Shown here: positions 58,510 through 64,000 of the stretch, in pieces
Layout of the letters: every line of letters starts with the position of its first letter
Numbering within the stretch: the first letter of the stretch is position 1
From: Acidibrevibacterium fodinaquatile
GTDB lineage: Bacteria; Pseudomonadota; Alphaproteobacteria; Acetobacterales; Acetobacteraceae
Assembly: GCF_003352165.1 (NCBI RefSeq)
Contig: NZ_CP029176.1
Location: 2,666,001-2,730,000 of the forward strand
Direction: 5' to 3'
Length of the DNA: 64,000 bases
Position numbers and translations under genes: made by a program
The notes under the pieces: generated by a model
Database searches by the model: none
Seen by the model: only the letters and a program-made list of their open reading frames with translations
What the model was told of the DNA's origin: nothing

Positions 58510-59680
58510 ATACCAACCTGCCTATCTAATGACCGCTTTGATCCAGTCTTGTTGGGTGATCGAAGCGATTTGTTCTGGCATTTGCATGAACTTGTTCCAG
58601 GCGTTTCGGCAGGCGGCAAGGATTTCGTCGTAGCTGTTCCAGACCTGATGGTTTAGGAAGTTGCTGCGCAGAAATTGCCAGATGTTTTCGACTGGGTTGA
58701 GCTCTGGCGAATAGGGCGGCAGCGATAGCAGGCTGATGTTGTCGGGCACCGGCAAACGTTCGCCGGCTTGATGCCAGCCGGCGCCATCGAGCACCAGCAC
58801 GGCGTGCGCACCGGGCGCGACCTGCGTGCTGATTTCGCGAAGATGCTCGGCCATCGCCTCGCTGTTGACCGCCGGCATGATGATGGCGGCACCAAGACAG
58901 CGTGCTGGGCAGACGGCACCAAACAGATAGGCGGAGTCATGGCGATTGTCGCGCACCGCCAGTGGTCGGGAACCCCGCTCTGCCCAGACATAGCTCAGGG
59001 TTCCCTTCTGACCGACACGGGCTTCATCGGCGAACCACACCTCGATCGGCTTACGGGCCGCCGTGGCCGGGATCGCCGCCGCTACCAGGCCAGCGAAGTC
59101 TTTTTAAAAATGTCCTGTGCCGCAGCGTCCTTCTTCGGATGATACGGACGCGGCTGGACCCGCGTGAACTTGAGCCGCCGCAACAATCGGCTGATCGACG
59201 TCTCGTGCAGGGTAACCGCAAACTCGGTCTCGATCCGTCGCTGCAGGTCAACACAGCGCCACCGCACCACGCCGTCACGCTCCAGGTCCGGGCCCTGCCT
59301 GACCCATGCCGCGATCTGCGCCTGCTGCGAAGCCGACAATCGGGGCGGCGGGCCGTTGCGGCGCGGCGCATCGCCCAGTCCGTCAGGTCCCAATGCATTG
59401 TAACGGTGCACCCAGTCGCGCAGCGTCTGGCGGTCCATGGCACAAGCCTCGGCCGCATCGCGCCGAGACCAGCCTTCAAGAACAAGAGCAATCGCCAAAA
59501 GGCGCCTCGAAACTTTCGCATCCGTCGCACGAGCCGCCCGCTCGCGCAGCGCCATAGCCGACAAGTCCAAACGCGTTATCGCTACCGTCATCGCAAGCCT
59601 CCTCCGGGGAAGCTCAGCGAATCATACCCGCCCGAGCCGCACCAACTCACATTCGAGTCAACGGAACCTCAGGTTGGTAT
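58510..59680. mobile_element. IS630-family element
   Basis: 1171 bp with 11-bp perfect terminal repeats (ATACCAACCTG at 58510 and its complement ending at 59680), flanked by TA duplications (58508-58509 and 59681-59682), the IS630 target. It sits in the istA remnant and carries one transposase in two frames. Confidence 0.9.
58522..59591 (-). CDS. IS630-family transposase, two frames joined by a -1 shift
   Basis: The 5' frame (59591-59082, 169 residues) has helix-turn-helix motifs (LEGWSRRDAAEACAMDRQTL, WVHRYNALGPDGLGDAPRRN) and ends at DIFKKTSLAW. The catalytic frame (from about 59095 to 58522) reads FAGLVAAAIPATAARKPIEV, then VWFADEARVGQKGTLSYVWA and YSPELNPVENIWQFLR (DDE motifs). The switch is at TTTTTAAAAAG (about 59100-59110); slipping back one base joins them. 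This may be programmed frameshifting or a lesion. Confidence 0.85.
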
Positions 59681-59682
59681 TA

Positions 59683-60035
59683 CCCACAGCTCCTACACCA
59701 CTCGGCGGGACACAGCCCCTTGCCCCGGCTTCGGAGACACCGGCGCGAGAGAAACGCGATCGCACTTTCCCTAATGCAGAAATTCGCGGAAACTGTGTCC
59801 AACGTCGGATTCGCTGTGCAGAAACCATCGAAGTGTCGGAACCGAACCGGATGCTTGACAAAAATCTGCGCCATCCCGAAAATATGATTGCGGCGCGGTG
59901 GCGTGATAATTTGAGGGCTGTTTATCCATCGTGGGTGTCAACGCTAGGCGTCCAATTGCAAAACCAATTGCGTTTCGCTTAGTGCGCGAAGAAAATGGTT
60001 GAGAAAGCCGGCCTTTAGGGAGACTTCCGTCCGAG
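59683..60035. other. 353-bp intergenic region at the right side of the insertion-sequence cluster
   Basis: Lies between the IS630 end and the first ABC permease gene. No coding frame is convincing, and istA N-terminal sequence was looked for and not found. The part near 59980-60035 becomes purine-rich before the permease ATG (GGGAGACTTCC) and should carry its promoter or leader. Confidence 0.5.
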
Positions 60036-62303: not shown

Positions 62304-64000
62304 ATGAACGAACGTCTCGTCAGCCTGCGCTATCGGTATTGGCCAGATCATCTGGTAGGCGAAATTCTCTCGAAACGATGGACTGAAACCGCGATTCCCG
62401 CCGTCGTCTTGGTGATCGTGGCTGCCGTGTTCAGCGAGGCGATCCCGGGCTTTCTCTCCGCCGCGGGGCTTGCCGACACAGCGCGCCAAGCCTGCGAGAT
62501 CGGGTTCTGTGTGCTCGGCATGTCGCTGGTGATCATCGTCGGAGGCATTGATCTTTCAATTGGTTCGATGTTCGCGCTGACCGATTTCTGCGCGCTGTTT
62601 TGCCTCGACGTACTTGGCTGGCCGGTCTGGGCGGTAATCCCGACGACGCTGTTCGCGGGCACGCTGCTCGGCGCGGTCAATGGCATCCTCATCGGATTTT
62701 TCAGGCTTCGCGCCTTCATCACCACGCTGATCACGCTCATCGTCTATCGCGCTGCTTATGATCTGTTGATATTTGGCCATTCCAACCAGATCGCCGCCGC
62801 TTTTCCGGACATCCCGCTCTGGAACTTCATCGGCGGCGGCACCCTTCTCGGCGTCCCGAGTATCGTTCTGGTCTACGCCGCCATTGCGATTTTCGGCCAT
62901 GTCTTCCTAACTCGGCTCCGCCCCGGATGGCACGTAGTCGCCATCGGAGGATCAAGACGTTCGGCGTTCAACTCGGGTATTCCGGTTCGCCGTACCATCG
63001 CGCAATGCTATGTCGGGAGCGGATTCCTCACTGCCATGGCTGCGCTATTTTTTGCGGCGCGCCTGGGCACGGTGGGCGGCGATATCGGCGTAGGGCTGGA
63101 AATAACCGTTCTCACCGCGGCGATTCTCGGCGGCATCAGCCTCGGCGGCGGCAAAGGGTCGGTCGCCAAAGCCCTCACTGGCACGCTGATCGTGCTGCTG
63201 ATCACCAATGGCCTGACGACACTCTCCGCTCCGGGCGGCGTCAACCGCATGGTTCTGGCATCGATCCTTCTCATCGCTGCAATGATCGACATACGCTGGG
63301 TAAAGAACCGCACCCGCATCATTAGCAAGGTCTATGTCAGCCCGACCTATCATGCGATGCCGCCGATCCCCGAAACCGATGCCGCAAGCGGTACCCCCTT
63401 CGCATTGAATGATCGACTGCGCGACGTGACCGAAATCGGCGTCGGTCGCATTGAGGCGCCGGAAGACATCATCCTCGATAGCGAGGATAATCTCTACGCG
63501 GGCTCGCGCCATGGCGACATCATCCGCTTCTTCCCACCGGATTACGAGCGCATGGAGGTCTATGCGCATATCGGCGGCCAACCCCTCGGGATGGCATTCG
63601 ACCGGAACCGCTCGCTTTATGTTTGCGTTGGCGGGATGGGTCTTTATCGTATCACCCGCAACCGCCAGGTCGAGAAGGCGACCGACGAGACCAATCGCAG
63701 CCTGCGCTCGGTAAACGATGACAGCCGCCTGCGGCTCGCGGATGATCTCGACATCGCTGATGACGGGCGCGTATTCTTCTCCGAAGCGACGGTGCGCTAT
63801 GAGATGCATGAATGGCCGGTGGACGGGCTAGAGGCGCGCGGCAACGGGCGCATCATCTGTTATGATCCCAATACGGAGACGACGCGCACCGTTCTTCGTG
63901 GCCTTAAATTCCCAAATGGCATCTGCATCGCAAGCGACAGGCAATCGATTCTGTTTGCTGAGACATGGGGCTGTACCGTCAAGCGTTATTGGTTTGACGG
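62304..64000 (+). CDS. ABC permease fused to an SMP-30/strictosidine-synthase-like domain, 3' end cut by window edge
   Basis: Open from ATG 62304 (ATG 62250 also in frame) to the window end, about 565 codons. Residues 1-335 are a second RbsC-type permease: VLGMSLVIIVGGIDLSIGSM, NGILIGFFRLRAFITTLITL and TAAILGGISLGGGKGSVAKA. Residues 335 to about 385 link to a six-bladed propeller of the SMP-30/gluconolactonase/strictosidine-synthase type: APEDIILDSEDNLYAGSRHG, ADDLDIADDGRVFFSEATVR and FPNGICIASDRQSILFAETW. The stop lies beyond 64000. The propeller could hydrolyse the transported substrate's lactone, inferred. No frame break is seen across the joint. Confidence 0.88.
   Translation, partial: MNERLVSLRYRYWPDHLVGEILSKRWTETAIPAVVLVIVAAVFSEAIPGFLSAAGLADTARQACEIGFCVLGMSLVIIVGGIDLSIGSMFALTDFCALFCLDVLGWPVWAVIPTTLFAGTLLGAVNGILIGFFRLRAFITTLITLIVYRAAYDLLIFGHSNQIAAAFPDIPLWNFIGGGTLLGVPSIVLVYAAIAIFGHVFLTRLRPGWHVVAIGGSRRSAFNSGIPVRRTIAQCYVGSGFLTAMAALFFAARLGTVGGDIGVGLEITVLTAAILGGISLGGGKGSVAKALTGTLIVLLITNGLTTLSAPGGVNRMVLASILLIAAMIDIRWVKNRTRIISKVYVSPTYHAMPPIPETDAASGTPFALNDRLRDVTEIGVGRIEAPEDIILDSEDNLYAGSRHGDIIRFFPPDYERMEVYAHIGGQPLGMAFDRNRSLYVCVGGMGLYRITRNRQVEKATDETNRSLRSVNDDSRLRLADDLDIADDGRVFFSEATVRYEMHEWPVDGLEARGNGRIICYDPNTETTRTVLRGLKFPNGICIASDRQSILFAETWGCTVKRYWFD

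Follow-up and report, generated by a model that had tools for sequence, protein, structure and literature searches.

In the genome of Acidibrevibacterium fodinaquatile the third of five genes of an ABC transporter operon, all on one strand, encodes a ribose-type (RbsC-type) permease that is continued in frame by a strictosidine-synthase-like β-propeller. Because this fusion is real and conserved, because its propeller is predicted to be cytoplasmic and because the metal-site residues of N6P hydrolases are kept in it, a tethered enzyme appears to be the best reading. With a probability of about 0.6 we propose an importer that carries a metal-dependent cytoplasmic hydrolase for an ester or lactone and is accompanied by a second, non-catalytic propeller. 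The five-gene set occurs in many proteobacteria and has apparently never been described as a system. Positions given here refer to the window, i.e., the whole analyzed stretch of 64,000 nucleotides that corresponds to positions 2666001-2730000 of the 4.04 Mb genome.

The fusion gene and its operon

The fusion gene lies on the forward strand and starts at 62304. As read from the window, its frame is free of stops up to the last nucleotide at 64000, and in the genome the gene closes at 2730421, equivalent to window position 64421, which gives a protein of 705 residues (P0001). Its permease part (residues 1-340; 62304..63323) was delimited by Pfam, an AlphaFold model and a charge count, its propeller (residues 364-705; about 60% inside the window at 63393..64000) by Pfam and a fold match. 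Both halves belong to known families. BPD_transp_2 covers residues 57-325 with 104.6 bits (curated cut-off 26.8), and in the second half SSL_N (residues 365-409; 44.2 bits, cut-off 18.9), SGL (419-601; 51.4 bits, cut-off 26.3) and Str_synth (480-565; 71 bits, cut-off 25) are recognized. The original prediction of an RbsC-type permease running in frame into a propeller is borne out by the open frame and by these domains, and a stop at about 63300-63430, which would separate the two halves, is excluded by the window sequence as well as by the relatives. The ribose permease model reaches 138.5 bits with the fused permease, far under its own cut-off of 398, and none of the NCBIfam transporter equivalogs attains its cut-off with this part. 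In public records the fusion is visible under two unrelated names, ‘SMP-30/gluconolactonase’ in some and ‘ABC permease’ in others; an annotation that names one protein after either half depending on the record can now be corrected.

All partner genes of an RbsC-type importer, i.e., a substrate-binding protein, a second permease and an ATPase with two nucleotide-binding domains, are present in the same operon. Gene 1 encodes the second, unfused RbsC-type permease of 343 aa (P0004; 60036..61067, forward strand; BPD_transp_2 with 92.2 bits) and is followed in conserved order by a sugar-type periplasmic substrate-binding protein of 342 aa (P0005; 61108..62136, forward strand; Peripla_BP_4 with 132.5 bits). 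Downstream of the fusion, and overlapping it by 4 bp, gene 4 codes for a protein of 363 aa here called propeller 2 (64418-65509, forward strand); it lies past the window end, out of sight of the original prediction. The double-domain ATPase with two ABC_tran stretches in Pfam (P0003; forward strand, from the ORF start at 65467 to 67002) closes the series; an alternative in-frame ATG at 65506 would overlap the propeller 2 gene by 4 bp.

The order permease 2, binding protein, fused permease with propeller 1, propeller 2 and ATPase was recovered by tblastn in 107/107 loci (L002 and L041-L146; L055 and L067 are one contig region and were counted separately), contig-end cuts aside, and no deviating order was seen among them. 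The whole cassette is present in 90 loci (L045 twice), and the remaining 17 show a partial cassette of unchanged order on short or cut stretches. Among nine annotated plasmid loci, eight have a 4-bp overlap between fusion and propeller 2 gene and the ninth has one of 8 bp.

Two direct copies of 1177 bp, 98.8% identical, flank the cassette at 58514-59690 and at L002:10961-12136 (window equivalent 68960-70135). From the encoded proteins we take them to be IS630-like, and with about 9 kb between them they resemble a composite transposon.

Distribution of the fusion

A search for the same fusion elsewhere, suggested along with the original prediction, found it in genomes of the genus, the class and the phylum and on plasmids. 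Within the genus it is full-length in four of six genomes, own genome included, with 90-100% identity (90-95% in the three others), and absent from two. Among the matches listed for the other 54 of the 60 relatives searched (own genome in the 60) there was no full-length fusion. At class level 16 propellers of the fused type were detected in 10 of 385 genomes (own included), all 16 in long frames of 559-823 aa, the one of 559 aa hitting a contig end; most of the matches ranking next are stand-alone proteins, about 360-420 aa long. A comparable picture emerges for the phylum, where 11 of 398 genomes (own included) contain 17 such propellers, all of them fused (frames of 707-840 aa), and where a clear gap separates the fused sequences with at least 583 bits from the next match, a stand-alone protein with 294 bits. 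The plasmid search yielded 16 records, including Shinella, Rhizobium, Salipiger, Paraburkholderia and Pantoea. In the genome collection at least 543 relatives of the fusion were obtained from 595 pattern stretches, and the best 80 of these 543, among them Bradyrhizobium, Rhodopseudomonas, Enhydrobacter, Reyranella and Comamonadaceae, contributed 80 of the loci, so the locus sample leans to close relatives.

One genome (G375) possesses five paralogous cassettes (L045, L046, L047, L048), of which three are clustered in about 25 kb on a single contig. A cassette with 80% identity was further found on a contig titled Mycobacteriaceae (L091), which is probably misbinned or else represents a transfer. 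A set of 22 loci whose propellers stand alone or are weakly similar contained none of the permease, binding-protein and ATPase seeds within flanks of up to 1.5 kb on each side, so no half-way stage of the fusion was found there.

Topology and the two propellers

The layout of an RbsC-type permease with ten membrane segments and both ends inside is matched by prediction, from model helices and a positive-inside count. An AlphaFold model is provided by the protein of locus L067, which is 94% identical to the fusion (pLDDT 76.8, pTM 0.60). Its helices are consistent with ten membrane segments, after which the propeller follows. The confidence of this model is moderate; with a pTM of 0.60 and a linker (residues 336-348, approximately) of pLDDT below 50 it does not fix the position of the propeller relative to the channel exit. 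Foldseek and VIA searches with the full model had only propellers among the matches listed and hardly probe the membrane part, and a search of PDB sequences with profile A2 gave no permease structure at E 0.01. Lysine and arginine in the loops together average 15.2 per protein on the side of both termini versus 0.9 on the opposite one (50 fusions, 705 aa). Because positive charge is concentrated on the side of both termini and the model helices fit ten segments, the fused propeller is predicted to lie in the cytoplasm, and the positive-inside rule answers in this sense the earlier question of which side it faces.

Propeller 1 has the six-bladed fold in its model, which superimposes best on rice TGW6 (8kg3; Z 32.1, rmsd 2.5, 276 aligned). 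TGW6 is also the nearest solved sequence (E 7e-34). Strictosidine synthases follow with Z 30-32, the lactonase RPA3624 and DFPase with Z of about 29, Drp35 with 27.9 and SMP-30 with about 27. Strictosidine-synthase-like proteins and strictosidine synthases (SSL/STR) thus rank over SMP-30 in sequence and fold matches, a ranking that by itself does not exclude SMP-30 membership. The assignment to the gluconolactonase/strictosidine-synthase group made from the window was correct, with the refinement that, by these matches, the propeller appears nearer to the strictosidine-synthase-like branch (TGW6, STR) than to SMP-30 proper.

The SGL domain and the four metal-ligand positions of the hydrolases SMP-30, Drp35 and DFPase are both present in the fusion. 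The available text of PMC3551927 gives four protein ligands of DFPase, Drp35 and PON that match Glu18, Asn154, Asp204 and Asn103 of SMP-30. In the fusion the predicted ligands, all encoded on the forward strand, are Glu387 (63462..63464; Glu in 94/94 fused propellers), Asp480 (63741..63743; Asp in 91 and Asn in 3 of 94), Asn538 (63915..63917; Asn in 94/94) and the pair Asp584/Asn585 (64053-64058, past the window; Asp and Asn in 94/94). The first three align with Glu-59, Asn-167 and Asn-226 of TGW6, and Asn-272 of TGW6 aligns with Asn585; Asp480 and Asp584 are further acidic residues at the predicted site of the fusion. Among 17 stand-alone relatives the same positions show E in 17, D in 13 and N in 4, N in 15 and D in 2, D in 17, and N in 14 and G in 3. 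In the available part of its description (PMC10958001) the TGW6 site consists of Glu-59, Asn-167, Asn-226 and Asn-272, and calcium was not detected in the crystal, so metal binding by the fusion, likely as it may be from its residues, is not to be taken for granted. In sequence alignments the residues of plant strictosidine synthases opposite Glu387, Asn538 and Asp584 are Asn, Gly and Gly. This pattern of replaced ligand positions, typical of strictosidine synthases proper, is absent from the fusion.

Propeller 2 of the window has no Pfam or NCBIfam match. Its model (pLDDT 85.3, pTM 0.86) is again a strictosidine-synthase-like propeller (Z 29.9). In positions of alignment A1, Asp occurs at 244 in 0/101 propeller 2 sequences and Asn at 198 in 7/101, and Arg occupies 245 in 98/101; propeller 2 thus has the predicted fold of propeller 1 but, judging from these residues, has lost the metal site. 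In a tree of 45 rows propeller 1 and propeller 2 form separate clades (support 100/99 and 100/100), and all fused-type propellers fall in one clade with support 100/99. The parts of the cassette also differ in conservation. Of 102 loci entered 7 lacked coverage, which left 95 loci in which propeller 1 has less than 89% identity and the three parts are all well covered. In these, the identity of propeller 1 to the window's copy exceeds that of its own permease in 95/95, and propeller 2, the least conserved part, stays below the fused permease in 95/95. Propeller 1 and ATPase are close to each other in identity (77.8 versus 77.3% in close loci, 59.7 versus 62.1% in distant ones).

Proposed function and comparison with known systems

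We suggest that the five genes together specify a single ABC importer of the ribose (RbsABC) type that depends on a binding protein. The binding protein would hand an ester- or lactone-containing small molecule to a channel formed as a heterodimer of plain and fused permease and powered by the double-domain ATPase. Inside the cell, the tethered propeller would hydrolyze the emerging ester or lactone with the help of a metal ion held by Glu387, Asp480, Asn538 and Asp584/Asn585, and the product would be trapped as a hydroxy-acid or alcohol of higher polarity, on which the next enzyme, frequently an acyl-CoA ligase, would act. Propeller 2 may serve as structural or regulatory partner of the fused propeller or of the plain permease. 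Of the original prediction, that a transporter subunit with a covalently attached hydrolase links uptake to the first catabolic step, the conserved fusion, the predicted cytoplasmic location and the retained metal residues stand; that hydrolysis would be the first catabolic step we infer. A bolder version, possible but doubtful, is an enzyme-coupled importer in which the ligand would be cleaved at the channel exit (vectorial catalysis), the catalytic and the obligatory dead propeller would form a closed chamber over this exit, and the module, copied up to five times in one genome, would have been adapted to different esters and lactones.

The neighborhood provides some substrate leads. A gene of the AMP-binding acyl-CoA ligase family is found in 26/107 loci, and in 18/107 it shares the strand of the cassette at a distance of no more than 400 bp (16 upstream, 2 downstream), both raw counts. 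In L043:11530-14187 and L044:1825-4476, directly downstream of the cassette, proteins of 885 and 883 aa consist of the ligase fused to a domain of the enoyl-CoA hydratase family, and in L123:4568-6844 a frame of 758 aa directly upstream combines a TetR regulator (TetR_N, TetR_C_24) with an AMP-binding acyl-CoA ligase as a possible fusion. Glycerol kinase is the next gene upstream in 4/107 loci (L041, L069, L070, L118), with an NCBIfam score above cut-off in L041. A keto-gulonate route considered for L041 from its kinase and OMPdecase-family neighbors was dropped since NCBIfam identifies a glycerol kinase and pyrF, a housekeeping gene. In Shinella sp. HZN7 a degradative HMG-CoA reductase (L059:6573-7898) overlaps the cassette start by one base, an adjacency that would fit mevalonate or its lactone as substrate. 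CoA-transferase III, aldehyde dehydrogenase and SDR genes are recurrent neighbors, and the copy in the window is flanked by IS elements on either side, with no recognized catabolic gene alongside. The neighboring genes differ between loci and do not point to a single substrate; from acyl-CoA ligases, glycerol kinase and degradative HMG-CoA reductase it seems that each operon may have a substrate of its own. Acyl-CoA ligases use acids and glycerol kinase uses a polyol, and both kinds of compound are released when an ester or lactone is hydrolyzed. Our guess is therefore that the two contexts could be accommodated by importers that hydrolyze different esters or lactones.

Regulatory domains are attached to some other ABC importers, and the main rival explanation, which we regard as unlikely, is that the propeller is no enzyme but a sensor, gating the importer (trans-inhibition) when it has bound the imported ligand or the product of that ligand. 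Such a role would agree with a propeller that is fused without exception and always accompanied by a pseudo-propeller, with a cassette that adjoins no single catabolic pathway and, as far as the available part of PMC10958001 goes, with the calcium-free crystal of TGW6 and its similar ligand set. Chemistry is nevertheless favored over ligand sensing, because the E/D/N/D/N set is invariant or nearly so in 94 rows while permease and binding protein diverge, as chemistry predicts; moreover, the pseudo-propeller shows the fate of the site when it is dispensable. That the propeller performs other chemistry of its superfamily, namely the formation of C-N or C-C bonds as in strictosidine synthase or the formation of lactones, is quite improbable. 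Strictosidine synthases do rank near the top of the solved structures by sequence and by fold, but they differ at the ligand positions, where the fusion fits the metal-dependent hydrolase pattern, and there is little sense in equipping an importer with a biosynthetic enzyme. Still less credit can be given to a mere scaffold that would keep soluble catabolic enzymes, or else propeller 2, close to the membrane: it would be in line with propeller 2 being always co-encoded on long enough stretches and with the usual 4-bp overlap, but gives no reason why the metal site of propeller 1 is invariant. Chance, frameshift or assembly artefact can be dismissed, as the identical architecture recurs across at least three proteobacterial classes, in genomes and plasmids that are independent of one another.

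If the propeller of the proposed hydrolase-bearing importer is active, the cassette would represent a widespread importer that traps its cargo chemically on arrival. Trapping of cargo on arrival is known from the PTS and from vectorial acylation, and we know of no ABC importer that achieves chemical trapping by a covalently attached hydrolase. The ever-present pair of a putatively active and a dead propeller offers a clean test system for the roles of pseudo-enzymes. No title or abstract in the searched literature, which mostly lies outside subscription papers, describes the permease-propeller architecture.

With sugar importers of the RbsABC/AraFGH type (BPD_transp_2, CUT2) the cassette shares a binding protein, two permeases and a double-NBD ATPase; in contrast with them, one permease is extended at its C-terminus by a propeller, and the operon also includes the gene for propeller 2. 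A covalently attached hydrolase that processes cargo is known from peptidase-containing ABC exporters, but these combine an exporter with a protease and cleave before export, whereas the cassette is an importer. TGW6, an IAA-glucose hydrolase (8kg3), agrees with the fusion in one Glu and two Asn of the metal site and differs by Asn-167 in place of Asp480 and by being a soluble protein not found on a transporter. The metal-dependent lactonases and phosphotriesterases SMP-30, Drp35, DFPase and RPA3624 share the fold (Z 27-29) and, following the available text of PMC3551927, the ligand pattern Glu, Asn/Asp, Asn, Asp; they have only about 13-18% identity to propeller 1 and are stand-alone enzymes. 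A natural fusion too is the Cu/Zn superoxide dismutase with a propeller lactonase from Deinococcus, reported in the available part of PMC12362111 as a calcium-dependent lactonase, but there the partner of the propeller is a superoxide dismutase and the fusion is restricted to one genus.
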